NCBI GenBank assembly: GCA_016287765.1
Contig: JAEEWS010000059.1
Span: 1 to 12,156 of the forward strand
Direction of reading: 5' to 3'
DNA length: 12,156 nt
Source: Lachnospiraceae bacterium
GTDB lineage: Bacteria > Bacillota_A > Clostridia > Lachnospirales > Lachnospiraceae
The position numbers and the translations under genes were made by a program. Below are positions 1 through 12,156 of the stretch, piece by piece. Below the pieces are notes generated by a model. It was not told the DNA's origin. It was given only the letters and a program-made list of their open reading frames with translations, and ran no database searches. Position 1 is the first letter of the stretch, and each line of letters starts with the position of its first letter.

Positions 1-81
1 CTGAAAGAGCAGATAATCGAGTTTATCGTTGCTCTACAGGGGTATCACCAGACTCAACTCGAAGGGATGGATGTTAATTGA
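1..81 (+). CDS. 3' end of an unidentified upstream gene (partial)
   Basis: An open frame runs from the window edge to a TGA at 79-81, giving 26 C-terminal residues that begin LKEQIIEFIVAL and end GMDVN. The peptide looks helical and amphipathic. The stop overlaps the TTG start of the next gene (TTGA), the kind of overlap seen between translationally coupled operon members, which is the main reason to think the frame is real. Too little is visible to assign a family or function; it probably belongs to the same early or nucleotide-metabolism operon. Confidence 0.5.
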   Translation: MKEQIIEFIVALQGYHQTQLEGMDVN

Positions 82-833
82 GAGAGGTTATTGTTACAGG
101 CAGAACGCTTCCCGAGGCATATCATGCGGCGCTTAAAGCGCTGTATGATGCCGGGGAAGTCTGTCCGTGTCCGGATTACAACACAAACCAGAAGGAACTT
201 TCCATGACCTTCTGTGTACTTGAACCCTTAGCGGAGCCAATGATTTCTAAGCTGTCTCTTGCGTCCCCGAGGGAATTGGAACAATATCGTCAGGAAATTC
301 TGGACGGGATTCTGGATTTTGAGATAGAACGCGGCAACTGGGCTTATACATATCATTCCCGCATGGCAGAACAAATTCCTTTCATCCTGTGCGAGCTGCG
401 CCGCAACCCGGACTCGCGCCGTGCGGTGATAGACGTGCGCGATTGGCGGCACGACGCGGCGGAGGGAAATGAAAACCCCGCTTGTTTACAGCATTTACAG
501 TTTTTCATCAGAGACAACAAGCTGCATTTAAAGGTGCTTTTCCGCTCAAACGATGCTTGCAAGGCAGCGTTTATGAATGCTTTCGCCCTTATTATGTTGC
601 AGAAAAGAATAGCAGACGAGCTTGGCGTAAAGGTTGGAACTTACACCCACAGAGCTAATAGTTTTCACTGTTATGAAAAAGATTTTGCAATGCTTGACGG
701 GTATATTCGTCGCATAGAACGAGGAGATGTGACCTTTAATTATGACGGTGATTGGGACGAGCTGATGGAGGATTCCAAAAAAGAAATCGCTTCATTCGTA
801 AAGGAACTGCGTGATAGGGAGGTGAAGTCGTGA
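78..833 (+). CDS. Thymidylate synthase (ThyA) family protein
   Basis: The 251-residue product would methylate dUMP to dTMP with methylene-tetrahydrofolate, or hydroxymethylate a pyrimidine dNMP. Family landmarks are in order: YTYHSR near residues 90-95, the phosphate-binding DSRR at 112-115, the catalytic Cys136 in PAC (usual PPCH, with Leu replacing the His), QF at 141-142, RSND at 156-159, Asn167 at the position that selects uracil over cytosine, and SFHCY at 195-199. It is shorter than bacterial ThyA (about 264 residues). The start is TTG, with GAAGGGA about ten bases upstream, and overlaps the preceding stop; the N-terminus REVIVTGRTLPEAYH fits a full-length start. Its end overlaps the next gene's GTG (GTGA), and dUTPase downstream would supply dUMP. 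The ThyA family is clear. Whether it is a true dTMP synthase or a phage hydroxymethylase cannot be decided by eye. Confidence 0.85.
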   Translation: MREVIVTGRTLPEAYHAALKALYDAGEVCPCPDYNTNQKELSMTFCVLEPLAEPMISKLSLASPRELEQYRQEILDGILDFEIERGNWAYTYHSRMAEQIPFILCELRRNPDSRRAVIDVRDWRHDAAEGNENPACLQHLQFFIRDNKLHLKVLFRSNDACKAAFMNAFALIMLQKRIADELGVKVGTYTHRANSFHCYEKDFAMLDGYIRRIERGDVTFNYDGDWDELMEDSKKEIASFVKELRDREVKS

Positions 834-1390
834 GGCATCTGACTATACTTATCGACATGGATGACGTTCTTCAGGATTTGATCGGAGGCTGGGTAAATGC
901 CTTGAATACAAAATTCGGAACAAACGTCGGCGTCGAAGATATAACCGATTGGAATATTGGGAGCTTTTTCCCTAATGTATCCAAAGGGGAACTGTTCTCG
1001 ACGCTTCGTGACCCTAATTTATGGTACGGCCTGAAAGCGATTCCAAAAGCGCAGGAAACGGTAAAACAGATTATAAAAGACGGGCATACGGTTCGGGTGG
1101 TCACAGCGTCTTATTATGTCGGGCTTCCGGCAAAAATAGAACACTTTCTTTCTCTCTACCCATTCCTGAGTTGGAAAGATATAATCATCGCCTATGATAA
1201 GAGCGTAATCTCCGGCGACGTAATAATAGATGACGGAGTCCATAATCTGAAAACCGCGATTTGTCCACACAAAATGCTTTTTGAGCGCACTCACAATCTC
1301 TCCTATGACGCGGAAGTAAACGGCATAATCCGCGTAAAAAGCTGGGACGAAGTGTATGATATTATTTTAAAAATTGGAGGGGTTAAATGA
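830..1390 (+). CDS. 5'(3')-deoxyribonucleotidase, HAD superfamily (NT5C type)
   Basis: The 186-residue protein is a HAD phosphatase likely to dephosphorylate deoxyribonucleoside monophosphates, tuning the dNMP pool made by its neighbours. Motif I is DMDDV, with nucleophile Asp9 and acid/base Asp11 following a hydrophobic strand. Motif II is the Thr of VVTAS (Thr92). Lys124 and the acidic pair Asp134-Asp135 in DVIIDD supply motifs III and IV. The length fits the short NT5C/phage family. It starts at GTG in a GTGA overlap with the previous gene, preceded by AGGGAGGTGA. Its last codons overlap the nrdD start (ATGA), so the three genes are translationally coupled. It could instead be a broader HAD nucleotidase, but the operon context favours deoxynucleotides. 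Confidence 0.85.
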   Translation: MRHLTILIDMDDVLQDLIGGWVNALNTKFGTNVGVEDITDWNIGSFFPNVSKGELFSTLRDPNLWYGLKAIPKAQETVKQIIKDGHTVRVVTASYYVGLPAKIEHFLSLYPFLSWKDIIIAYDKSVISGDVIIDDGVHNLKTAICPHKMLFERTHNLSYDAEVNGIIRVKSWDEVYDIILKIGGVK

Positions 1391-3117
1391 TTTCACAAAT
1401 CAAAAAAAGAGACGGGCGTATCGAGCCCTTCAACGCAGACAAAATCGTAAATGCAATACTCAAAGCCATGCAGAGAACTGATGAAATCAGAGAGAATGTG
1501 GCTCATGAAATTGCAGAGAGAATCGCAAACAGCTCTGACAGCTCGCAGGTCGTAGATATCGAAGTTATCCAGGATATGGTGGAACGCGAGCTTATGGCGA
1601 GCGATTGTAAAAAAGCGGCGAAGGAATATATCACATACCGGGAAAAGCGCAGCCGGGAGCGTCAGCGCAACACGGCTATCAACAAACGGATAGAGGATAT
1701 ACTTCTTTGCAAAAACGTCCAGAATCAGAACGCCAACGTGGACGAACTTTCTTTCGGCGGCAAAAAGTTCGAGAGCGCAAATGTACTTCATAAGGATATC
1801 GCCCTCAATGTGTTTATCCGTCCCGAAGTAGCGCAGGCTCACAGGGAGTCCCGCATATACATACACGACCTTTCTGAGTACGATATCGGAAGTCACAACT
1901 GCCTGTTCTGTGACCTGCACAGACTTCTGACGAATGGTTTTTCAACAAGAAACGGCGACGTTCGTCCCGCGAACAGTTTTTCCACGGCATGTCAGCTTAT
2001 CGCAGTCATTTTTCAGGTGCAGAGCCAGGTTCAGTTCGGAGGGGTAGCTACGGCTCATATCGATTACGACCTCGCTCCGTTCGTAAAAAAGAGCTTTTAC
2101 AAACATTTTATAGACGGACTTAAATATGTTGAAAACGCCGTTATGCCAGAGAACAGCACTCTTACAAACGAAAGTTCGATTGACAATCCCGAGTATATGA
2201 AGTACCCGAAGGCCTACCAGTATGCGATGGATATGATGGAACGCGAAGGCAAGCAGAGCTGTCAGGGGCTTTATCATAACCTGCTCACTCTCGAAAGTCG
2301 CGCGGGCTCTCAGATACCGTTCACCTCGATTAATTTCGGAACGGACACATCAACAGAAGGACGTATGGTTTCCCGGTGGCTTATGGAGTCAAGCCTTGAC
2401 GGTGTAGGAAAGTACCATAAAACGCCGATTTTCCCGATTTCGATTTTGAAGTATAAAAAGGGCGTGACGGCAAAACCCGGAGACCCGAACTACGACATTA
2501 AGAAGCTTGCTATTAAGTCTTTATGTCATCGTATATATCCGAATATTGTCAACTGCGATTTTTCTCAGAACATAGAAGAGCCCGGAAATCCTGACACGGA
2601 ATCTGCGGCAATGGGATGTAGGACGATGCTGGGATTTGACCGTCATGGACTTGGTTATTCCAAGGTTGGACGCGGCAATGTGTGCCCCACAACGATGAAT
2701 CTGCCGAAAATCGGCATAAAGCACGGCATCTGTCTCGGAGAAAGAGAAGAACCTGATATCGAAGGATTTTGGGATGAACTTGATGAGGTACTCCATCTTA
2801 CGGAAATGTCGCTCGTAGACCGCTTTTACCATATCTGTAATCAGCCAGTTGCTTCCGCAAAGTTTATGTATAACAACGGAACGATAGCAGACGCGGATAA
2901 GGCTATGGCAAAGGGCATTTACGAAGCGATGAAACACGGAACTCTGGCCTTCGGATATATCGGTATAGCTGAAATGTGTCAGGCTCTTTTCGGCAAAGAC
3001 CATTCCGAGGATGAAAAGGTCTGGGAATTTGCGTTGAGCGTAGTTAAACATATTTCCGATTATGCTAAGGAAGCAAGTGAGCGTAATGACCTTAACTTCA
3101 GTTGTTATGCTACCCCT
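1387..3117 (+). CDS. nrdD: Anaerobic ribonucleotide reductase NrdD, exon 1 (codons 1-577)
   Basis: NrdD reduces ribonucleoside triphosphates to dNTPs by glycyl-radical chemistry in the absence of oxygen. Exon 1 carries an N-terminal ATP-cone allosteric domain (about residues 3-95, ISQIKKRDGRIEPFNADKI onward). The barrel follows, with Cys172 and Cys175 in NCLFC, the conserved Cys411 in AMGCR, and NVCPTTMNLPKI just after it. The start ATG overlaps the upstream gene in an ATGA and is preceded by GGAGGGG. The uninterrupted frame runs past residue 577 for 16 unrelated residues to TAA at 3166-3168. That tail is intron sequence: the family pattern CYATP-AENLC resumes at 4153. Spliced with exon 2 it gives 740 residues, a normal length for ATP-cone NrdD. 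Unspliced message would yield a protein with no zinc site or glycyl-radical loop. Confidence 0.96.
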
Positions 3118-4152
3118 GGGTTTTCTGCGGGGGCTTGCACGGTAACGTGTAATGAAAAATCTATCTAACCTTTTAGGGTGTATATTTCACGTTTAGGAGC
3201 CGTAGGAAATGACGGTTAAGAAATATGCTAACAGGGGAGTCACGATAAGTGTAATCCTGTGCTAAATACTATTACTAATATACCAGAAATATTATTGAAA
3301 AGAGGTGATGATATTGGAACTGCCAAAAACAGCGCTTCCGGTAAAAGGATCTATAGATCACTGGGTAGATGTAGACGGAAGCATTTATGCAATAGACCAC
3401 AGAAATGGGCATCATAAACTAATAAAGAAATCGTTATCAGAGGTATATGGATACAAATATGTTGGAATAAAATATAAAAACGAGAAACACAATATATCCA
3501 AAAGAGTACATAGACTTGTTGCTGAGGCTTTTATCCCAAATCCGATGGGTTATACAGTCGTTGGCCATAAAAACAATATAAAAAATGACAATAGGGTGGA
3601 TAATCTGTATTGGACTACGACATCGGAGAACACTCAAAAGGCGTTTGATGATGGTCTTGCAAAAAACGCAAGTGGATTTGAGGATAGTCAAAGTAATCCG
3701 GTTTCTATGTATGAGACCTCAACAAATAGTTTTATAAAAACATATGGAAGTATAAGAGAGGCGGCAAATGAGACTGGTATTAGTTTAAGCACAATATCAA
3801 GACAAGCAAAATATAAAAGACCTGTCAGAAAAAAATACTATTTCAGATTTATTGATGATCCTGATGTCCTCCCTTATAATCCGATAGGAATGTATGCCTA
3901 TGACTCGGACGAAATGGTCGAAAGATTTGAAAGCATTAAACACGCAAGAGATAAAACAGGCGTTGATGTTGATGTTATAAAATATCATTTAGATCATGGA
4001 AAACCAAAACGTAAATTTTCAGATTTCTATTTTAAGGTAATTAGTAATAGTTAAATGTGAACAGACTATCGAAATCTTAGTAAGAAAGTAGAGTAGCGAA
4101 AGCGAAAGGGTAGACTCCGTTGAGAAAACGGATGAAAATATAGTCGAAAATG
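3118..4152 (+). ncRNA. Group I self-splicing intron in nrdD
   Basis: A 1035-nt intervening sequence splits nrdD between CCT (Pro577) and GCA (Ala578). Exon 1 ends in T at 3117 and the intron ends in G at 4152, as group I introns require. The guide at 3121-3133 (TTTTCTGC then GGGGG) pairs with both exons. GGGGG pairs with CCCCT at 3113-3117, with the diagnostic G.U at the splice site (P1), and TTTTCTGC is perfectly complementary to the exon 2 start GCAGAAAA (P10, 8 bp). P2 is a GTAA-loop hairpin near 3136-3154. P7 is GACTAT (4064-4069) with ATAGTC (4140-4145), and P8 is TCCGTT/AACGGA just upstream of the second P7 strand. The reading frame is exact after excision. P3-P6 were not resolved, so the subgroup (possibly IA) is uncertain. 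Confidence 0.93.
3305..4054 (+). CDS. Intron-encoded HNH homing endonuclease with NUMOD repeats
   Basis: The product cuts intronless nrdD alleles so that repair copies the intron into them. Numbered from GTG at 3305 it has 249 residues. An N-terminal segment resembles NUMOD4 (about 17-60). An HNH_3-type core follows: VHRLVAEAFIPNP at 68-80, His88 in VVGHKNN, then NRVDNLYWTT at 96-105 with Asn100. Two NUMOD1-like DNA-binding repeats follow, at about 131-182 (NPVSMYE... ISLSTISRQ) and 192-246 (NPIGMYAYD...). AAAGAGGTG abuts the GTG and sits only a few bases from the ATG at 3308, so the TTG at 3314 (MELPKTALP), about seven bases further on, is the better-spaced start. Codons are noticeably more A/T-rich than in flanking nrdD, consistent with separate mobility. 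The gene lies entirely within the intron, between the 5' structured region and P7. Confidence 0.9.
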   Translation: MMILELPKTALPVKGSIDHWVDVDGSIYAIDHRNGHHKLIKKSLSEVYGYKYVGIKYKNEKHNISKRVHRLVAEAFIPNPMGYTVVGHKNNIKNDNRVDNLYWTTTSENTQKAFDDGLAKNASGFEDSQSNPVSMYETSTNSFIKTYGSIREAANETGISLSTISRQAKYKRPVRKKYYFRFIDDPDVLPYNPIGMYAYDSDEMVERFESIKHARDKTGVDVDVIKYHLDHGKPKRKFSDFYFKVISNS

Positions 4153-4644
4153 GCAGAAAACTTATGCCGCACATACGCCAAAGCGTTAAAGGGTGAATTT
4201 GGCGTAATTCCGAGAGTAACAGACCGCGAATACATAACGAATTCTCACCATGTTCCTGTATGGCAGAAGGTTTCGATTTATAAAAAGCTTCAGCTCGAAG
4301 CTCCCTTCTGTAAATATCCCACCGGCGGCTGCATCACTTATGTTGAGCTTGAAAGCTCTGTTATGCAAAATGAGAAGGCGATAGAGGATATCATAGACTA
4401 TGCGATGTCCCTGGACATCCCGTATCTGGCCTTCAATTTCCCGATTGATACCTGTCTTAAATGCGGCTATCAGGGAGAAATAAACTATAACTGCCCGAAA
4501 TGCGGCAATACGGAAATCCAGCGTTTGCGTCGTGTAACTGGCTACCTTTCGGAAGACTATCGCAACTTTAACGAGGGCAAAATAGCGGAGGTTCTTGACC
4601 GCGTGAAGCATAGCGAATATACCGATTTTACAAAACAGGAGTAA
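4153..4644 (+). CDS. nrdD: Anaerobic ribonucleotide reductase NrdD, exon 2 (codons 578-740)
   Basis: This is the C-terminal 163 residues of NrdD, beginning AENLCRTYAKAL directly after the intron. It contains the family's four-cysteine zinc site (Cys678, Cys681, Cys691 and Cys694 of the spliced protein, in CLKCGYQGEINYNCPKCG). The glycyl-radical loop is RRVTGYL, with radical Gly707 encoded at 4540-4542, 33 residues from the end, as in characterised class III enzymes. An ATG at 4150-4152 is in frame but is formed by the last intron bases and has no ribosome binding site, so it should not be called as a separate gene start. The stop lies two bases before the nrdG start, and AGGAG near the end of the exon serves as the nrdG ribosome binding site. 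Confidence 0.95.
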   Translation, partial: AENLCRTYAKALKGEFGVIPRVTDREYITNSHHVPVWQKVSIYKKLQLEAPFCKYPTGGCITYVELESSVMQNEKAIEDIIDYAMSLDIPYLAFNFPIDTCLKCGYQGEINYNCPKCGNTEIQRLRRVTGYLSEDYRNFNEGKIAEVLDRVKHSEYTDFTKQE

Positions 4645-4646
4645 GA

Positions 4647-5147
4647 ATGAATATAGCCGGAATCAATTTCGAGTCGATTGCTGACGGCGAAGGCGTGAGG
4701 GTTGTGGTCTTCACGAGCGGATGCCTTCATAATTGCAAAGGCTGCCATAACCCCACATCACATTCTTTTACAGCAGGGCGGGAATTTACAGCGGAAATAC
4801 AGGACGAAATCATTGATTATATTCGCAAGACTCCGTTTATCAGCGGAATAACTCTCAGCGGTGGCGATCCGATGTACAGCGCCGCAGAACTGACACCTTT
4901 CGTTCTGCGTGTAAAAAATGAAGCTCCAAACATATCAATCTGGATATACTCAGGCTTCACCTACGAAGAAATAGTATCAGATAATAATATGCTGGAACTT
5001 CTAAAAATATGTGACGTCTTGGTTGACGGTATGTTTGTTTTGGAGCGACGCGATATAACGCTTCCGTACAGAGGCAGTACGAATCAGAGGCTTATAGATA
5101 TAAAAGCCTCGCTTATTAAAAGGGAAATAGTGCCTTATAGCCCGTAA
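4647..5147 (+). CDS. nrdG: Anaerobic ribonucleotide reductase activating protein NrdG
   Basis: NrdG is a radical-SAM iron-sulfur enzyme that cleaves S-adenosylmethionine and abstracts hydrogen from the NrdD glycine (Gly707) to form the radical. The 166-residue length is typical. The cluster motif is C26-LHN-C30-KG-C33, followed by HNPTSH. SGGDP, the SAM-binding GGD-type motif, lies near residues 71-75, and the C-terminal RGSTNQRLID is a NrdG signature. Its ATG lies two bases after the nrdD stop with AGGAG upstream, so it is co-translated with its partner. The early part, INFESIADGEGVRVVVFTSGC, matches the family N-terminus, so the start is secure. No truncation or missing key residue is seen. 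Confidence 0.96.
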   Translation: MNIAGINFESIADGEGVRVVVFTSGCLHNCKGCHNPTSHSFTAGREFTAEIQDEIIDYIRKTPFISGITLSGGDPMYSAAELTPFVLRVKNEAPNISIWIYSGFTYEEIVSDNNMLELLKICDVLVDGMFVLERRDITLPYRGSTNQRLIDIKASLIKREIVPYSP

Positions 5148-5171
5148 ATAATACATAAGGAAGGATGATTT

Positions 5172-5759
5172 ATTATAAAAAATTCGACCCATTCGATGTT
5201 TGTAACAATAGGCGCTTCTAATCACGCGATGGACGAGCGCGAGGAATTTGATTATTACGCAACAGACCCGAAAGCTATTGAGCTGTTGCTTGAAATAGAG
5301 GAATTTTCTCCAAACGTATGGGAATGCGCCTGCGGAGCCGGACACTTGAGTAAGGTTCTGGATAAAAAAGGCTACAATGTAACCTCCACCGATCTCATAA
5401 ATCGCGGATACGGAACTCCCGGCGTAGATTTCCTTAAAAGCGACATATTGTTCGACGGAGATATTATAACAAATCCTCCGTATAAATACGCTAAGGAATT
5501 CGTGGAGCACGCGATAGAGTCCGTAACAAACGGACATAAGGTTGCGATGTTCCTGAGACTACAATTTCTTGAAGGAAAATCCAGAAGAGAATTGTTCGAT
5601 AAATATCCTCCGAAAACAGTATATGTCGCTTCCGGCAGAATTCCCTGCTGTAAGAACGGGGACTTTGACAACTGCAAAAACGGCAGCGCCGCTGCGTATG
5701 CGTGGTTTATTTGGGAAAAGGGATACGCCGGTCTCACGCAGATAAAATGGTTTAACTGA
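5172..5759 (+). CDS. DNA adenine-type methyltransferase, probable non-canonical start
   Basis: This is a class I SAM-dependent methyltransferase likely to methylate adenine N6 in DNA, perhaps to protect phage DNA. The first ATG (5196) gives 187 residues. There the SAM-binding motif is WECACGAGHLS (about 42-52), an acidic strand end STDLI follows (64-68), and the catalytic NPPY is at 93-96. Upstream codons in the same frame, from ATT at 5172, add IKNSTHS, which looks like the family N-terminus preceding GASNH and YYATDP. AAGGA at 5161-5165 lies six bases before this ATT, while 5196 has no ribosome binding site. A rare ATT or ATA start is therefore proposed. The alternatives are the internal ATG, or a one-base shift in the six-A run at 5177-5182 from an ATG at 5165. 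The gene interrupts the nucleotide-metabolism set and may be an accessory insertion. Confidence 0.82.
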   Translation: MIKNSTHSMFVTIGASNHAMDEREEFDYYATDPKAIELLLEIEEFSPNVWECACGAGHLSKVLDKKGYNVTSTDLINRGYGTPGVDFLKSDILFDGDIITNPPYKYAKEFVEHAIESVTNGHKVAMFLRLQFLEGKSRRELFDKYPPKTVYVASGRIPCCKNGDFDNCKNGSAAAYAWFIWEKGYAGLTQIKWFN

Positions 5760-5869
5760 TGAATAATACATACATAGAACTTTTCGGAGACTTCCTCGTG
5801 CTTATATCAATATGTACGATGGGCTTCTTAATATATAAATCCAAAAATAATTTCAGACCAAAGTTTTAA
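5759..5869 (+). CDS. 36-residue single-span membrane peptide
   Basis: A small frame starts at an ATG that overlaps the methyltransferase stop (TGATGA) and ends at TAA 5867-5869, 18 bases before the dUTPase start. The peptide begins MNNTYIELFGDF, has one hydrophobic span (about residues 12-26, LVLISICTMGFLIY), and ends in a basic tail rich in Lys, Asn and Arg. That layout fits a single-pass inner-membrane peptide with a cytoplasmic basic end. Support comes from the coupled start, the tight fit between two genes and the transmembrane pattern; there is no clear independent ribosome binding site. The function is unknown. A chance frame is possible given its size. Confidence 0.55.
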   Translation: MNNTYIELFGDFLVLISICTMGFLIYKSKNNFRPKF

Positions 5870-5887
5870 AGGAGAGATAAAGTAATC

Positions 5888-6316
5888 ATGGAAATTCTCA
5901 TTAAGTATCATAACGACGAACTTAAGAAAATCGAAGCCATTGAGCTCGGCGACTGGATAGACCTTCGCGCTGCGGAAAATGTAAGCCTCAAAAAAGGGGA
6001 GAGCAGGTATATATCCCTCGGCGTTTCGATGAAGCTGCCGGAAGGCTATGAAGCGCACGTCGCGCCGCGCAGTTCGAGCTACAAGACCTGGGGTATTATC
6101 CAGACAAACAGTGTGGCTGTCATTGATAACAGCTACAGCGGGAATAACGACATCTGGAAATATCCCGTACTTGCGACGCGCGATACGGAGATCAAGGTAA
6201 ACGACAGAATATGCCAGTTCCGCATTATCGAGAAAATGCCGAAGATTGAATTCATCGAGGTATCTGAGCTCGAGGGAGAAGATCGCGGAGGCTTCGGCTC
6301 TACTGGAAGCAATTAA
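5888..6316 (+). CDS. dut: Trimeric dUTPase (deoxyuridine triphosphatase)
   Basis: dUTPase hydrolyses dUTP to dUMP and pyrophosphate, keeping uracil out of DNA and feeding the thymidylate-synthase-family enzyme encoded upstream. All five motifs of the trimeric family are present in 142 residues: GDWIDLRA (21-28), [11 protein letters not shown] (60-70), [11 protein letters not shown] (76-86, with catalytic Asp80 and uracil-stacking Tyr83), NDRICQFRI (105-113) and the flexible C-terminal RGGFGSTGS (133-141). The ATG is preceded by AAAGGAGAGA, about ten bases upstream. The motif 3 spelling with NSY and an inserted GNND resembles a version I associate with Firmicute phages. No key residue is missing. 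Confidence 0.95.
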
Positions 6317-6792: not shown

Positions 6793-7863
6793 TTATGCGG
6801 GTTGTGAACTTTCGTTAGCAATCTTATTAGCATTTTCCTCTTCGGAGTAAAATGCTAATAGCTTCAATTCGGCTTCTTTTTCATCGGCTTCAGCAAGCTT
6901 TGTATAAACTCGCCTCATAGTTCCCCAGTCGCTCCACCCTCCGATTCTCATACATTCAAGTTCCGAAACTCGTAAATGATAACAAAGGGATGCGAAGGAA
7001 CGTCTGAGCCCATGAACTCCTATGAGGGGAAGTTTATTCTTTTTACACACATAATCCAAATGCTGTTTTATAGCGTTTGGATGTCCCTGATAAATCTTGC
7101 CATGTTTATTTTGAACAGATTCCAACGCTTCTATAAGACGCGGTATCATAATCGGAACGGTACGACGACTGCTGCTGTTCTTATTGGTCTCCTTGTCCAC
7201 CATCTGATGATTTTCGTCCGGAACCGTAGCGCCATGAACATAAATTCTCTTATTCTTAAAATCGACCTTATCCCAAGTCAAAGCCAGTATCTCAGAGCGA
7301 CGAAGCGAGCATAGTGCAAGCAGGGCGGGAATTTCGTATTTATCGCCTTTGATAACGCGAAGAAATATTTTGATTTGCTCGTAATCAAGAAAAGGCTTCT
7401 CCTTTTTTACGCCCTGCGGAAGAATGACCTTGAAACTTTTTCCTGTGCTTTCACGCAAAACAGACGAAACAAATCCCCAAGCATTTTTTAGAGTCTTCCA
7501 TGAAACAAGCTTTGCTTCCTGATTGATCATCGCCTGTATATTTTTCTCGTCCATTTCTTTAATAGGGCGCTTCATATAATCCTTAAAACGGTTCTCCTGA
7601 ACAATACGATAGAAGAGAATCGTTGATGGGGATAAAATATTTTCACGAAGACGAATGTATTCATTTATTGCGCCGTAGAGCGTACCTTGAAGAGCTTTTT
7701 GCTGCTCGACTAAACCACCTTTAATCGCCGCAGCTTTTGCAATGCAAAGCTTCTCTGTGTCCTCCGTAATGGATATTGACTGCTTTACACCATCCGGATT
7801 CGTAAGACGTAATTGACAAAAATATTTTCCCGACGGGAGCTTTCTTACTTTTGGTAGTTTCAT
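6793..7863 (-). CDS. int: Phage tyrosine recombinase (integrase)
   Basis: This enzyme inserts the phage genome at its attachment site. The start chosen is ATG at 7861-7863 (MKLPKVRK), giving 356 residues, because AAGAAGGA lies six bases upstream; a frame nine codons longer has no such signal. The first 50 or so residues (GKYFCQLRLTNPDGVKQSIS) look like the small arm-DNA-binding domain. A SAM-like core-binding domain follows (about 60-145), then the catalytic domain: Arg188 in SLRRSEILAL, SSRRTVPI (231-238), His284 and Arg287 in HGLRRSF, Trp310 in GGWSDWG in place of the second His, and nucleophile Tyr320 in RRVYTKL. The C-terminal coding region (EENANKIANESS) is built on attachment-arm heptamers. 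The gene is convergent with the + strand operon and ends 27 bases from the att core. Confidence 0.95.
   Translation of the reverse strand: MKLPKVRKLPSGKYFCQLRLTNPDGVKQSISITEDTEKLCIAKAAAIKGGLVEQQKALQGTLYGAINEYIRLRENILSPSTILFYRIVQENRFKDYMKRPIKEMDEKNIQAMINQEAKLVSWKTLKNAWGFVSSVLRESTGKSFKVILPQGVKKEKPFLDYEQIKIFLRVIKGDKYEIPALLALCSLRRSEILALTWDKVDFKNKRIYVHGATVPDENHQMVDKETNKNSSSRRTVPIMIPRLIEALESVQNKHGKIYQGHPNAIKQHLDYVCKKNKLPLIGVHGLRRSFASLCYHLRVSELECMRIGGWSDWGTMRRVYTKLAEADEKEAELKLLAFYSEEENANKIANESSQPA
6814..6859. repeat. Right-arm TGCTAAY heptamers inside the 3' end of int
   Basis: Three more heptamers lie on the other side of the core: - strand at 6814-6820 and 6826-6832 (12 bases apart, as in the left arm) and + strand at 6853-6859. 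They sit within the last codons of int and encode parts of its ENANKIANES tail. The symmetric placement around 6739-6765 supports an attP site with P and P' arms. Confidence 0.7.
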
Positions 7864-7897
7864 TTTATTCCTTCTTTTCATATATTTCAACAGAAAT

Positions 7898-8023: not shown

Positions 8024-8275
8024 CTAACCGTTAGAGTCCGCAGGCTCGTCGTCACTGTACGCCGTAGCATCGATTGTGTAATCAATTACCTCAACGACGA
8101 TAAAATCGGATTTTGCATAACCTTCATCGTTCAGCATCGTCTCCACCTTTTCGTCAAGCGCGGCCTTGGTCGGAAGCTCAACAGGGGAGATAACGCCATC
8201 AACGGTAGTGGTAAGGTACTGATAAAGAGAAGCGTAGTTATCCTTCTTGGATTTAACAATCATAATTCTATACAT
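8024..8275 (-). CDS. Small acidic phage protein of unknown function
   Basis: An 83-residue protein begins MYRIMIVKSKKDNYASLYQY and ends in an acidic, low-complexity tail (YSDDEPADSNG). GGGAGG lies six to seven bases before the ATG, so it is well expressed. A central hydrophobic strand, SDFIVVEVIDY, suggests a small alpha/beta fold; there is no signal peptide or membrane span. It is the last gene of the late operon, after the holin-type genes and before the strong terminator. No named family is recognised. The position suggests an accessory lysis or late-expressed protein, but nothing in the sequence shows its role. Confidence 0.75.
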   Translation of the reverse strand: MYRIMIVKSKKDNYASLYQYLTTTVDGVISPVELPTKAALDEKVETMLNDEGYAKSDFIVVEVIDYTIDATAYSDDEPADSNG

Positions 8276-8292: not shown

Positions 8293-8646
8293 TTATCTGC
8301 CGAAAATTACGACTGTGCCTATAATTCCGGTTCCGAGCAAAGACAACACGGACGTGATAAGGGACACCTTGATGGAATTCCAGTTATCCGCAACCTTCTT
8401 ATACGGAAGAATCTCATGCTGATTAACTTTTTCCGCGAGCTTATTGACCTTGTCGTTTGTGTCATTGACTTTGTCGTCGATCTGTTCAACGCGCTGCGCG
8501 ATGAGCTTGATAGAACTGGCAATCTCATAAATCGCCTTTTGGTCGCCCTTAACCTCACGAAGTTCTTCGGCAATATCACTTATCTTTGCTTCGTTATTTT
8601 TAGTTCTTGCCTCTGTTTCGACTATAATTTTTTCCATATCTGTCAT
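8293..8646 (-). CDS. XhlA-type coiled-coil membrane protein of the lysis cassette
   Basis: With the start at ATG 8644-8646 (AAGGAGGA seven bases upstream) the protein has 117 residues. A frame six codons longer includes the ribosome binding site and is rejected. It has a long charged coiled-coil region (about 5-85, with heptad-like IAQRVEQIDDKVNDTNDKVN), then NWNSIKVSLITSVLSLLGTGIIGTVVIF, a single C-terminal membrane span with a short exterior or basic end. This is the architecture of the haemolysin XhlA family, which in PBSX-like phages works with a holin and amidase in host lysis. It lies directly downstream of the LLH-type holin. The assignment rests on architecture and context. Confidence 0.75.
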   Translation of the reverse strand: MTDMEKIIVETEARTKNNEAKISDIAEELREVKGDQKAIYEIASSIKLIAQRVEQIDDKVNDTNDKVNKLAEKVNQHEILPYKKVADNWNSIKVSLITSVLSLLGTGIIGTVVIFGR

Positions 8647-8665
8647 GGCGAGTCCTCCTTGCATA

Positions 8666-9022
8666 TTAGTTTTCCTCCTTGACTTCGATAACGGAGGCTA
8701 TCTTAGCGTTTTTCTCAAGTAATTCCTTCATTTCCAGAAGCGCGTCATCGACGTAATCACTAAATATCTGGAATGGTATGATTTTTGCAAGCCACGGTAA
8801 TTGCTTACAGAATTCGGCGTATACGTTAGAAAGCTTAAGTTCACCAGTTCCACCGCCAAATTCTTTTTCCGCAAACATAACTGCCTGCAAAAGCCATCCG
8901 CGAATTTGCTGATAACGCTCTTCACTACTCATTTTCTTAAATCTGATAATAGAAACGACAAGCCAGACGAGAAAAATTAAAAGCATAAGAAGCGTATGCC
9001 AGTTGTCAATTATAAGCTTCAT
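8666..9022 (-). CDS. LLH-family phage holin
   Basis: Holins open the cytoplasmic membrane to release endolysin. The start is ATG 9020-9022 (MKLIIDNWHTLL), placed by AAAGGAGGA about six bases upstream; the frame extends 24 codons further without support. The 118-residue protein has one strong N-terminal membrane span (WHTLLMLLIFLVWLVVSIIRF, about 8-28). An amphipathic cytoplasmic part follows with WLLQAVMFAEKEFGGGTGELK (about 42-62), the AE...FG.GTGE-K pattern seen in the LLH holin family, and an acidic C-terminal helix. The length and order fit that family. It sits between a two-span membrane protein and the XhlA-like gene, as expected for a lysis cassette. Confidence 0.8.
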   Translation of the reverse strand: MKLIIDNWHTLLMLLIFLVWLVVSIIRFKKMSSEERYQQIRGWLLQAVMFAEKEFGGGTGELKLSNVYAEFCKQLPWLAKIIPFQIFSDYVDDALLEMKELLEKNAKIASVIEVKEEN

Positions 9023-9035
9023 AATTATCCTCCTT

Positions 9036-9350
9036 TCATATTGCAGGGCTTTCCCATTCCTGCTGAATAAATTCTTTTGCCTGTGCAGCGGCAAAGGTTA
9101 TCCCTGTACCATCCGCACTCTTATGATCGGACTTCGCCATATTAAAGTACCATGAACAAATTGCTCCGTGTGCAATCCAAGAACTACTTACCATTCCCGC
9201 AACCCAAGCAAGTCCGCCAACATAGCCCCTATAAACGCAGTAAAAGGCGAGCAAAAGCCCGCCTCCGTTTACAAGCCAAAGCAAATAACGGTTGTCGTTG
9301 ATGAGCTTTTTGGAAAACTCAAGAGGCTGTGGTTTTTTCTTCGTTTTCAC
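9036..9350 (-). CDS. Two-span membrane protein in the lysis cassette (unknown)
   Basis: A 104-residue protein starts at GTG 9348-9350, three bases after the endolysin stop, with a weak GGGAAAGG upstream, so coupled translation is likely. After a basic N-terminus (MKTKKKPQPLEFSKK) come two hydrophobic segments, about 23-41 (LLWLVNGGGLLLAFYCVYR) and 44-68 (GGLAWVAGMVSSSWIAHGA onward), then a soluble tail ending EFIQQEWESPAI. It could be an accessory holin, antiholin or pinholin-like protein, given that the holin follows and the endolysin precedes it, but it matches no family I can name. Confidence 0.75.
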   Translation of the reverse strand: MKTKKKPQPLEFSKKLINDNRYLLWLVNGGGLLLAFYCVYRGYVGGLAWVAGMVSSSWIAHGAICSWYFNMAKSDHKSADGTGITFAAAQAKEFIQQEWESPAI

Positions 9351-9353
9351 GCT

Positions 9354-10082
9354 TTACGCCTTTCCCAAAAACTTGGCAAAGTTGTAGATAAGTTGCATCA
9401 TCTGTTCACGAGTGAGCAAATCCTGAAACATATAATTAGGTTTGCCGTCAGCTCCGTTACCGCCGCCGTTGACGATGCCGTTCTTTATACAGAAATCTAT
9501 CGCCTCTTGCGCCCATGTGCTATGGTCGTTGTCCTGCAAGCTTTTGCGATATTCATGCATATACTCTTTAAACTGTTCGGAAGTCATCTCTTCATCACTC
9601 TCCTTGATTTCTTTTATATACTGAGGGCGGAAAGCGCCCTTGATTTGCTTCTTTGTCCGTGTGCGCCGCATGACTTCTCCGCCGTTAGACTCATTAGCAG
9701 GGGAGGTGTTGCCTTCGATGGTAATTACGGTGTTTCCGTCGACATTTTCGACGATGCCGACATGATCGCAGTCGCCGCTCGCGTCCCAGTCGTAAAAAAC
9801 GATATCGCCGGGCATATATCCGTCGGTTATTGTAAGCCCCTGAGACTGCGCCCAACGCCAAAGTGTAGTGCAGCTCGCGGTCTTTCTGCCTCCGTAGAAC
9901 AACTCATCTGCACCGACGACATGGAAAAGCCACCATATAAACGCGCAGCACCAGGAATATGCCGCACCGGAGACATCTCGGCCATAAAACAGTGTGTTGT
10001 ATTTCACATTGTTTACAGGCGCTTCCTTTGTCCCGATTTCTTTGCGGGCAAGCTCAAGAATTGCCGCAGCGGTTGTTTTCAT
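9354..10082 (-). CDS. Endolysin: CHAP cysteine hydrolase with C-terminal SLH-like domain
   Basis: The 242-residue lysin would cleave cell-wall peptidoglycan at the end of infection. The N-terminal CHAP domain (about 5-155) has Cys45 in YSWCCAF, His107 in CDHVGIV and Glu122/Asn124 in IEGN, the usual catalytic set, plus the PGDIVFYDW strand (91-99). After a charged linker (156-186), residues 187-235 read STWAQEAIDFCIKNGIVNGG...FQDLLTREQM. This matches the S-layer-homology pattern (WA..AI....GI..G, then TR.Q/E) and probably binds secondary wall polymer. There is no signal peptide, so release depends on the holin. The start ATG follows AGGAGATGATAGATA. It is the first gene of the lysis cassette in transcriptional order. 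Confidence 0.9.
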   Translation of the reverse strand: MKTTAAAILELARKEIGTKEAPVNNVKYNTLFYGRDVSGAAYSWCCAFIWWLFHVVGADELFYGGRKTASCTTLWRWAQSQGLTITDGYMPGDIVFYDWDASGDCDHVGIVENVDGNTVITIEGNTSPANESNGGEVMRRTRTKKQIKGAFRPQYIKEIKESDEEMTSEQFKEYMHEYRKSLQDNDHSTWAQEAIDFCIKNGIVNGGGNGADGKPNYMFQDLLTREQMMQLIYNFAKFLGKA

Positions 10083-10108: not shown

Positions 10109-10139
10109 TTAGGCGCGGCGTATTACATGCCGCGCCTAA
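10109..10139. other. Perfect 11-bp GC-rich stem-loop upstream of the endolysin
   Basis: TTAGGCGCGGC (10109-10119) pairs perfectly with GCCGCGCCTAA (10129-10139) around a 9-base loop. It lies between the MoaF-like stop and the endolysin ribosome binding site. Neither side has a T-run, so a normal intrinsic terminator is unlikely. It may stabilise or process the late mRNA, or act as a leaky terminator between the accessory genes and the lysis genes. Confidence 0.7.
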
Positions 10140-10157: not shown

Positions 10158-11069
10158 TTATCTTAGATTAAGATACGGATTTGGGTCTGTAAAATAAGAC
10201 CTGTCTACGATAGCAGGTTTACCATATCTGGTAAACGCCAAAAGTATCGGCTGGTCATTCTCAGTCGTGTCATCATCTGTTGCGACGGACGCTGTTCCGA
10301 AAGCGCGTCCAACACCGACCATCTTAGTCCAGCTATCAAGGAAACAGAGATTGGAGCACCTCATTCCCGCTTTGGGGCCGAGAAGCTGCTCCATCACCTT
10401 TTCAGTAATAGAAAGGAAGAACATGTCCCGTTTTATCTTAATCATAGTTATGGGTTCACTCGTTGTAGCAAGCTTAGGTTTTGTTGGGTCATTTTCCGCT
10501 GTGACTACCGGAGGCACGGAATCTTTATGCCAAATGATTCTATACCAGTCAGGATCGTAATACACATGAGTATAGACATGACGCGTAGAATATGTCCAGG
10601 TTATAGCGGAACCAACTGGTTCATCAGTATACCCATGCCGCGTCTTAGGCGGTTCTGCTCCTTCATGGTAAATATAACCGAACGCAAATGTAACGTCCTG
10701 AATATATCTTGATTTCGGATTTTTCCCCACCGTGCATAGCTGCATAGTTACAAGACCATTTTGAACATCGATAACAAACGTTACATTGTATTTCGGAATG
10801 TCTTTGGTGTAGCCTCCGATAGTAAGAAGATATGTGAAATCGTCAGCCTTGCGGCATTCATACCAGTCTTTGCCGGTAAGCTCGCCGTCTTTAATAGACC
10901 AATAACACCATCCGTCGTTAGACAGGTTAACAGTAGCCTCTCCGGTCTCGGTTCCTTCATCGAAGACAAACTTAAACTCTCTCCCAAAAAGCTCAAAGTT
11001 CTTAGGCTGCGCGTATTGCGTGATTTCCATAGCCATGGCTTCTTTGATAAATTTATCTACCAATCCCAT
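10158..11069 (-). CDS. MoaF-like protein (calycin-type barrel plus MoaF C-terminal-like domain)
   Basis: The start is ATG 11067-11069 (AGGAGGTG six bases upstream), giving 303 residues. The N-terminal half (about 25-110) contains FELFGREFKFVFDEG and a run of alternating strands ending in TFVIDVQNGLVTMQL, the style of MoaF and related small beta-barrels. The second half has RHGYTDEPVG (144-153), WTYSTRHVYTHVYYDPDWY (158-176), then IKIKRDMFFLSITEKV and a GRAFG segment (254-258), matching the order of MoaF C-terminal-domain proteins. MoaF was linked to molybdenum cofactor biosynthesis by context, and its reaction is not established. No other molybdopterin gene is nearby. It lies between an isochorismatase-like gene and the endolysin in the late operon, a common place for accessory genes. 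Family assignment is by pattern memory; function is unknown. Confidence 0.68.
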   Translation of the reverse strand: MGLVDKFIKEAMAMEITQYAQPKNFELFGREFKFVFDEGTETGEATVNLSNDGWCYWSIKDGELTGKDWYECRKADDFTYLLTIGGYTKDIPKYNVTFVIDVQNGLVTMQLCTVGKNPKSRYIQDVTFAFGYIYHEGAEPPKTRHGYTDEPVGSAITWTYSTRHVYTHVYYDPDWYRIIWHKDSVPPVVTAENDPTKPKLATTSEPITMIKIKRDMFFLSITEKVMEQLLGPKAGMRCSNLCFLDSWTKMVGVGRAFGTASVATDDDTTENDQPILLAFTRYGKPAIVDRSYFTDPNPYLNLR

Positions 11070-11087
11070 AAGTTTCACCTCCTGAGA

Positions 11088-11834
11088 TTATATAAGAGTT
11101 TTCGGATCGGTATATACAGGATACTCTGTAGCAACGAAATCGTTTTCCGCGTCGGGGTCTGTGTCTTCCCAATTCTCAACAACGAATAATTGCTCTTTCA
11201 GAGATCTCAATGCTTTTGTGTGAAGTTCTGGAGTGGTGCCGGCGCAACAGGCTGCGTCGATAGCCAACATAGTTCCCGGCATATATGTACGAATGTAATT
11301 CATGAAAGGATGGATGCACTCGTCTGTGCAATAACCGATGAAGGTTATCTTTTCTATGGGGTCTTCAGGATATGCCTCGTTGTAATCCCAGAAATAGTGA
11401 CATATTACTCCGTTAGTATGCTGGTATAGACCGAAAGTTTTCGGATATCCGTGTTCATAGTCTGTAAAATCTATGGGGCTTTCCACGGTTTCTCCGCGAG
11501 CTATCTTTTCAGCGCGCTCAGCATCATCGTGAGCTTTTCGTTCTTTAAGATATGTAAGAAGATTGTCAAACGGCCTCGCGTTTATGCTATTAATAATGTC
11601 TTTATTAGTAGTAAACCCGTAAGTACCATAAATACAATGTTTCGGATATCTGCCGCCCTCCGGAGAACTCAGATAGGCTTCTTCCGAGTTGTTCCAATCG
11701 AGTGCGGTTAGTATAATGCCCTCAAACGATTCGATACGCTCGCATATTCTCGGGACTATCGAAACCGCTTCGGCAGAGCCAAGAACACCGCTTATCTTGT
11801 CGTTCTGAGGGCACATTACGATTAAAACTTCCAT
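11088..11834 (-). CDS. Isochorismatase/nicotinamidase-fold protein with altered active site
   Basis: The 248-residue protein shows the cysteine-hydrolase landmarks: VLIVMCPQND at 3-12 (usual VDxQND), TALDW at 43-47, RYPKHCIYGTYG at 62-73 (compare WPxHCVxGTxG of nicotinamidases) and FIGYCTDECIHPF at 165-177 with presumptive nucleophile Cys173. Lys132 (PKTFG) may be the catalytic lysine. Two positions deviate: the catalytic Asp is Cys8, and the metal-site His two residues after Asp46 is Asn48, although His66 is kept. A charged insertion (about 92-128) enlarges the middle. ACGGAGAT precedes the ATG. It is followed 18 bases on by the MoaF-like gene, so the two are likely expressed together late in infection. 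It may be a specialised hydrolase, a binding protein or an inactive homologue; the substrate is unknown. Confidence 0.78.
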   Translation of the reverse strand: MEVLIVMCPQNDKISGVLGSAEAVSIVPRICERIESFEGIILTALDWNNSEEAYLSSPEGGRYPKHCIYGTYGFTTNKDIINSINARPFDNLLTYLKERKAHDDAERAEKIARGETVESPIDFTDYEHGYPKTFGLYQHTNGVICHYFWDYNEAYPEDPIEKITFIGYCTDECIHPFMNYIRTYMPGTMLAIDAACCAGTTPELHTKALRSLKEQLFVVENWEDTDPDAENDFVATEYPVYTDPKTLI

Positions 11835-11845
11835 ATAAATCTCCG

Positions 11846-12043
11846 TTAATCGTCTGAATACAGTTCTCCCGTAATCAGCTTATAATCCTCGGGGCTCAGG
11901 AAATGAAAAACTTTCACAAAGTTTTTAACCTTTTCTTTGCTTATCATTTCGTTTCTGTAGAGCATCAGTATCGCTTCAACTCTGGTTTCTTTGTTAGCGT
12001 CGCCAACCAGTCCATTAGTATTTGTCAGCCCAAAAGGACTCAT
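11846..12043 (-). CDS. XkdX-like small phage protein
   Basis: With the start at ATG 12041-12043 (MSPFGL; AGGAGGTG six bases upstream) the protein has 65 residues; a frame three codons longer overlaps the ribosome binding site. The C-terminal half, ISKEKVKNFVKVFHFLSPED, followed by YKLITGELY, matches the XkdX pattern (K-E/D-VK-FV, then EY-x-x-ITG-x-x-Y). XkdX-like genes usually sit at the end of the tail-fibre region just before the lysis genes of PBSX-like and many Firmicute phages, as here. The function is not established. The N-terminal part is longer than in typical 45-55 residue members. Confidence 0.65.
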   Translation of the reverse strand: MSPFGLTNTNGLVGDANKETRVEAILMLYRNEMISKEKVKNFVKVFHFLSPEDYKLITGELYSDD

Positions 12044-12089: not shown

Positions 12090-12156
12090 CATCATCGCTA
12101 AAACTAATTCTAACTCAGTAAGCTTTCCCATTTTGACCGTGACTGTCCCGTCCCTA
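12087..12156 (-). CDS. 3' end of an unidentified late gene (partial)
   Basis: A minus-strand frame is open from the window edge to TAA at 12087-12089, giving 22 residues RDGTVTVKMGKLTELELVLA followed by MM. It lies 44 bases before the XkdX-like start in the same direction. In related phages a tail-fibre or baseplate gene occupies this place, but the visible peptide is too short to confirm that. The frame could be by chance. Confidence 0.45.
   Translation of the reverse strand, partial: RDGTVTVKMGKLTELELVLAMM

Follow-up and report, generated by a model that had tools for sequence, protein, structure and literature searches.

In a 12,156-nucleotide stretch of a Lachnospiraceae bacterium contig (JAEEWS010000059.1; the whole stretch is referred to here as the window), a temperate phage carries two adjacent genes for proteins with metabolic-type folds: ISO, a 248-residue nicotinamidase/isochorismatase-fold protein (11088..11834, minus strand), and MOAF, a 303-residue MoaF-family protein with two beta-barrel-type domains (10158..11069, minus strand), each assigned from Pfam (below the cut-off for ISO), structure prediction and alignment. 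Here, we propose that the pair may be a late accessory unit closing the tail-gene block at its 3′ end, and that a non-catalytic ISO adaptor would there accompany a ligand-binding MOAF barrel; we give this reading a probability of about 0.45. Judged by its residues, ISO is probably a pseudoenzyme, while MOAF looks functional from its conservation. An initial annotation had described the two products as small-molecule enzymes or binders with isochorismatase and MoaF folds; structure prediction and structure search supported both folds, and the metabolic character of the pair stands, but ISO, with its altered active site, is unlikely to be the enzyme that its fold suggests.

Against the Pfam Isochorismatase profile (PF00857), ISO scored 22.4 bits, below the cut-off of 27, with residues 157–223 matched; structure prediction and structure search gave an isochorismatase-like hydrolase fold, with a PhzD D38A mutant among the structure-search matches, and a search against the sequences of solved structures found nicotinamidases (1ilw, E 2e-4). 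This fold is common to ISO and the PncA/cysteine hydrolase family (PF00857), including the PncA proteins of phage NAD salvage, from which ISO differs in an Asp-to-Cys and a metal His-to-Asn replacement, a Cys that is not conserved within its clade, a helical insert (approximately residues 81–135) and a C-terminal tail (approximately 223–248). From true isochorismatases, which have an Asp-Lys arrangement and no Cys, it is set apart by Cys8 in place of the Asp.

ISO was aligned with 64 relatives, namely 57 of 80 viral loci and 7 database proteins, the rows left out of this and the MOAF alignment by our choice being near-copies, short, or interrupted by stops (as in L056 and L026, where stops fall inside the matched span). 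Seventeen columns are invariant among the relatives, and the clade formed by the window protein, P0013 and P0014 keeps 11 of them; those lost are D8 (Cys), F13 (Lys), T44 (Ala or Val), H48 (Asn) and N177 (Phe), plus a Lys column whose loss depends on the alignment. The catalytic Asp, present in 64/64 aligned relatives and in 117 of the best 120 of 263 homologues (the others being one Tyr, one Ala and one protein that starts behind the position), is Cys8 in all three clade members. In the metal site, which we take to be Asp-His-His in PF00857 hydrolases, D46 and H66 are kept and H48 is Asn in 3/3 members, against His in all 64 aligned relatives and all of the best 120 homologues. Cys173 is found in the window protein and P0013 and is Ala in P0014, the residue being Cys in 63 of the 64 aligned and 119 of the 120 listed others. 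The catalytic Lys column holds Ser, Thr or Asn in the clade as aligned, versus Lys in 64/64 relatives; by eye, a K-x-T-F motif can be made out (P131-K132-T-F in the window, K-R-T-F in P0014). Among the 64 aligned relatives and the best 120 of 263 homologues (122 proteins entered the residue check), joint loss of the catalytic Asp and the metal His is seen only in P0013 and P0014 besides the window. Given the replacement of both residues and a Cys that the closest separate homologue does not share, it is unlikely that ISO functions as an ordinary hydrolase; it lacks two catalytic features of such hydrolases and should be called neither a nicotinamidase nor an isochorismatase.

Between the window protein and P0014, identity is 84% over residues 1–37, 44% in the metal/substrate loops (38–80), 84% in the insert helix (81–112), 61% over 113–135, 84% over 136–160, 88% in the CTDEC region (161–186), 75% over 187–222 and 46% in the C-terminal tail. 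As the insert and its flanks have the higher identities, selection seems to act on them more than on the pocket. In the ISO tree the clade sits on a stem of 3.68 plus 0.87 under a midpoint root, and its nesting is not readable from the tree because of that long stem and that root.

MOAF exceeds the cut-off of both Pfam MoaF profiles (33.4 versus 23.3 bits and 24.5 versus 22.1 bits); its N- and C-terminal MoaF domains were recognised by Pfam and the fold by structure prediction and structure search, while a search against solved-structure sequences returned nothing below E 1. All 23 columns that are invariant in 51 relatives are kept in the window protein and in P0002, its counterpart in a second lineage, including D40, Y73, K77, D104, R147, H148, H171, Y173, Y179, R180 and E208. 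MOAF keeps these invariant polar positions and has therefore probably retained the ability to bind, or convert, a small ligand. From the MoaF family (PF10703 and PF17409; structure 4q51) it differs in its phage location, a very long stem and changes at near-invariant columns. Also comparable are phenolic acid decarboxylases (PAD) and other calycin-type barrels (bacterial avidins, FABP and 5hal, titled a putative beta-lactamase), which have a single domain; the shared fold shows no function. The family takes its name from a monoamine-regulated operon, and we know of no settled function or biochemical activity for it.

The cellular MoaF relatives come mostly from Oscillospiraceae and other Clostridia (49 loci, 42 of which were aligned), and the aligned ones are 31–44% identical to MOAF; within one order, 6/394 genomes gave a match, the best at 44% identity, and three Rhizobium plasmid records matched at 24%. 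In the tree the phage rows fall among 38 Clostridia-type rows that form a supported set (98/93), their own stem being 2.16 changes per column long, a placement to be read with caution for long branches. Beside the cellular genes (24 loci tried, 9 without an open reading frame under the rule applied, leaving 15 with 79 of 84 neighbours scanned) stand 5 FAD oxidoreductases, 3 old-yellow-enzyme-type oxidoreductases and 3 aldehyde dehydrogenases. Tandem MoaF arrays of three and four matches occur in two Oscillospiraceae metagenome-assembled genomes (L037, L038), and four genomes (G003, G103, G137, G139) have MoaF-like stretches, mostly of the N-terminal half, within open frames of 578–928 codons.

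Both genes are found in a second lineage, where P0002 is 81% identical to MOAF and P0014 70% identical to ISO, and because both recur at these values the two reading frames are not chance. Outside this pairing the families were not found together: with tblastn at E <= 1e-3 and flanks of up to 8 kb, ISO was near cellular MoaF at 0/49 loci and MOAF near phage ISO relatives at 0/80 (80 kept of 203 confirmed). No MoaF relative was found in 50,697 phage records or by IMG/VR scans, the latter made with short peptide patterns and without a positive control. ISO matched six phage records at 25–31% identity, one of them annotated as a nicotinamidase, and one plasmid record, with no match in four genomes reached through the loci; at one of the 80 phage loci (L087) an endolysin match lies on the opposite strand. 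The ISO–MOAF combination and a phage MoaF thus appear new within the databases searched, both folds being from known families. In the open literature searched (subscription papers and preprints lay outside the scope) no phage role of MoaF was found, nor an isochorismatase as a phage anti-defence factor, nor likewise MoaF with lipocalin, in keeping with the initial annotation, which knew of no described phage role for the pairing. One published report has an isochorismatase annotated in one honey-bee prophage (PMC10259446).

The company kept by the phage relatives of ISO appears to differ from that in the window. Among 150 of 213 neighbouring proteins scanned (38 loci, from 80 loci of which 12 had no open reading frame and 55 were distinct) were 15 NAPRTase, 7 phosphoribosyltransferase, 3 cytidylyltransferase-like and 2 NAD synthase proteins, so that a good part of these relatives adjoin NAD-salvage genes, though only some have them. 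One 332-residue relative, P0070, joins a nicotinamidase-type domain to an NAD synthase domain (PF00857 and PF02540). ISO itself has no NAPRT-, NadE- or NMNAT-type neighbour among 18 open reading frames scanned in the window, which ends at 12156, and the Pfam scan of these frames found no molybdopterin, siderophore or NAD-salvage gene, as the initial annotation had said of pathway partners. A molybdopterin link was accordingly rejected, the name MoaF itself going back to a monoamine-regulated operon; a working NAD-salvage gene was rejected too, given the active-site changes and the missing partners.

The genes are tightly packed on the minus strand. An XkdX-like gene (11846..12043), the last recognisable gene of the tail block, lies 11 bases upstream of ISO; its first ATG after a Shine-Dalgarno sequence is at 12043, the mechanical reading frame beginning at GTG 12052. 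ISO and MOAF are separated by 18 bases (11070..11087) that contain the MOAF ribosome binding site AGGAGGTG. Both frames are intact, and that figure, first given in the initial annotation, is exact when MOAF starts at ATG 11069 rather than at GTG 11078, which falls inside the Shine-Dalgarno sequence AGGAGGTGAAACTTATG, and this start agrees with the 303-residue database copy P0001. The strong ribosome binding sites claimed for both genes hold for MOAF, whereas that of ISO is moderate, with a weaker GGAG (ACGGAGATTTATATG). The GC content of both genes is 0.44, within the 0.34–0.49 range of the others. On the minus strand, the 322 bases that the window has upstream of ISO contain no promoter-like site; there is one inside MOAF (10598), and the region has 14 on both strands versus 8.6 (standard deviation 3.4) in shuffles. 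ISO and MOAF are presumably co-transcribed.

Downstream, as the initial annotation had it and as Pfam and PHROG matches to both neighbours bear out, comes a CHAP-domain endolysin (9354..10082, minus strand), preceded by a perfect 11-bp hairpin with a 9-base loop and without a T-run (10109..10139, minus strand; -26.5 kcal/mol, z -4.91, 0/200 shuffles equally stable). Two backbone relatives, L147 and L148, have stable predicted hairpins at the equivalent place before the endolysin (-36.2 and -34.1 kcal/mol, without shuffle control), all three energies counting pairs outside the main stem. Terminator scans of the three sequences did not list these hairpins; that of L148 gave a single weak site at the end of XkdX, with which it overlaps, and its total of 6 sites is near that of the shuffles (mean 3.6). 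With a hairpin standing between slot and endolysin in the window, L147 and L148, the pair appears to close the tail block, outside the lysis block.

In L148 the slot holds, after XkdX, two frames of 61 and 103 residues without a Pfam or PHROG family and then the endolysin, and the L147 sequence starts within the same arrangement; the ISO–MOAF pair is absent from both as far as their sequence runs. Five annotated named phages, our selection among 29 records that match XkdX (Arawn, 268TH002, StB27, phiCD27 and HHU-22), all have in the same slot nothing but small genes, of hypothetical, membrane, hemolysin or holin type, in contrast to the 248- and 303-residue metabolic folds here; a region of Dulem virus 33, selected via another gene and with no XkdX annotated, was left uncounted. 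The endolysin relatives L138–L146 belong mostly to different backbones, and one, L139, related by the endolysin only, has a 413-residue frame in the slot (XkdX there being identified by eye). L148 (10–543) and Butyrivibrio phage Arawn (L149:2578–3723) each have a reverse transcriptase immediately upstream of XkdX, which hints at a diversity-generating tail system in this gene neighbourhood. That the pair might be variable proteins of a diversity-generating retroelement was considered on this account and rejected: for most of their length both can be aligned with families outside the targets of such elements, no template-repeat search having been made.

Starting from what is directly supported, namely the predicted folds, the changes in the active site, the way conservation is distributed, the recurrence of both genes in a second lineage, and the slot with its content in relatives, we infer a partnership, ligand binding and a role in the virion or the late-infection cell. 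ISO and MOAF would make up a single accessory unit, expressed late from the 3′ end of the tail-gene block and produced with the tail proteins just before lysis. ISO would descend from the nicotinamidase (PncA) family, having lost the catalytic Asp and the metal His and become seemingly independent of the catalytic Cys, and would use its new helical insert, together with the helices that flank it, to act as a scaffold or adaptor without catalysis. MOAF would descend from the MoaF family common in Clostridia and would probably still bind or convert a small ligand, with ISO holding or presenting it in the assembling virion or tail tip, or in the late-infection cell. Of the three roles offered by the initial annotation, a late virion-associated function fits the slot best, although we infer the place of action.

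Several observations weigh against this proposal. Adjacency is the only evidence that the two proteins meet, and the shared contig of P0002 and P0014 is itself presumed, the longest contig given for each being 206,215 bases. The ISO clade comprises three proteins from two lineages, its segment borders were chosen by us after viewing the alignment, and single catalytic losses occur outside it (Tyr in P0025 and Ala in P0033 for the Asp, Ser in P0021 for the Cys). Altered chemistry in ISO is conceivable because the window protein retains Cys173 and its Cys8 sits in the well conserved first segment (84%). The preserved core of MOAF would fit a free cytosolic binder or enzyme as well, and both phage copies depart from the family at at least nine columns that 48–50 of the 51 relatives conserve (E106, P124, F150, G164, P204, Y212, Y220, N228 and N249). 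In PHROGs, ISO matches one family of unknown function and MOAF none; no homologue of either was seen annotated as a tail protein, most having no name. Large genes in the slot are not unique, as L139 shows.

One alternative keeps the binding and changes its purpose: as a late or counter-defence sponge, ISO would bind a nicotinamide-like or NAD-derived signal uncut and MOAF would bind or convert a second product, so that host signalling or abortive infection would be weakened. The fold and kin of ISO point to NAD metabolism (15 NAPRTase, 2 NAD synthase and 3 cytidylyltransferase-like proteins among the 150 neighbours), non-catalytic binders derived from enzymes are a plausible design, and MOAF has its conserved core. 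However, F13, T44 and H48 are gone as well, and no segment is less conserved than the metal/substrate loops, where a retained pocket would lead one to expect the reverse. Counter-defence genes are usually early, whereas these are placed late, and no family of the PADLOC anti-phage defence profiles matched either protein at E <= 0.1. Counter-defence, also raised in the initial annotation, thus gained no positive support, and we regard the sponge as possible but unlikely. Were the pair instead an active enzyme of altered type, with Cys8 and Cys173 or a moved Lys132 giving new chemistry and MOAF handling the product, then Cys8 in all three clade members and the kept metal residues D46 and H66 would be accounted for; Ala at 173 in P0014 and the variability of the metal/substrate loops, the most variable part, speak against it, as does the need for the Asp in true isochorismatases, which still require it without the Cys. 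We rate this as improbable.

Cargo for lysogenic conversion, another role suggested in the initial annotation, would be a metabolic pair expressed in the lysogen to the benefit of the host. The integrase marks a temperate phage, and a metabolic role is conceivable since cellular MoaF lies near FAD oxidoreductases (5) and aldehyde dehydrogenases (3) among its 79 neighbours. This becomes less likely because the genes are packed behind XkdX with gaps of 11 and 18 bases, have no minus-strand promoter-like site in the 322 bases of window before ISO and precede the lysis genes instead of standing between lysis genes and integrase; ISO, moreover, is without the catalytic Asp. We hold it to be distinctly unlikely, if slightly less so than an altered enzyme. 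That the genes are neutral hitchhikers heading for decay agrees with the rarity of the pair and its absence from the two backbone relatives over their available sequence, but both frames are open in two lineages, conservation is structured and 23/23 MOAF invariants are kept, and this we find very improbable. The late accessory unit remains our preferred reading.

The rest of the window fits a temperate phage, with an integrase (6793..7890, minus strand; Pfam and PHROG), whose host is probably among the anaerobic Clostridia. On the minus strand beyond the endolysin are a small conserved lysis-block protein, membrane-type by eye (9036..9350; 72–74% identical in L147 and L148), a holin-like protein (8666..9094; 63–69%; an LLH holin match below the Pfam cut-off and a PHROG holin match at E 3e-6), a coiled-coil-like protein (8293..8664; 55–57%) and an 83-residue protein (8024..8275; 80–81%). 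The C-terminal 80 residues of the endolysin are common to relatives with a different catalytic part, being 55–56% identical between the window and L147/L148, where the domain has been swapped: CHAP in the window (9354–10082, minus strand), Phage_lysozyme2 and Amidase_2 in L147 (385–1710) and L148 (1422–2747). A nucleotide-metabolism block on the plus strand (78–6316) encodes a thymidylate-synthase-like 251-residue protein, an NT5C-type 5′-nucleotidase, the anaerobic ribonucleotide reductase NrdD, an NrdG-like radical-SAM protein and a dUTPase, with a Dam-like methyltransferase match below cut-off. NrdD is split (1387–3168 and 4150–4644, plus strand, approximately 980 bases between) by an HNH_3 and NUMOD1 homing-endonuclease-type frame (3305–4054; GC 0.34 versus 0.45–0.46 in the flanks), which suggests that an intron is likely; Rfam gave no family in the window, nor in 3100–4250.

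Both proteins look as though they were captured from metabolism and put to new use. It is possible, if doubtful, that a nicotinamidase turned non-catalytic adaptor and a captured MoaF barrel make a new ligand-sensing or ligand-carrying module, delivered with the tail or made alongside it; such a module may, for example, be a tail-tip unit that recognises a metabolite or surface ligand of the host, or may act late as a sponge for a signal derived from NAD. If the proposal is true, a phage would have recruited two metabolic folds jointly for a late function, one of them by stripping its catalysis, and a phage MoaF copy under separate constraint could help to find the ligand of the MoaF family.
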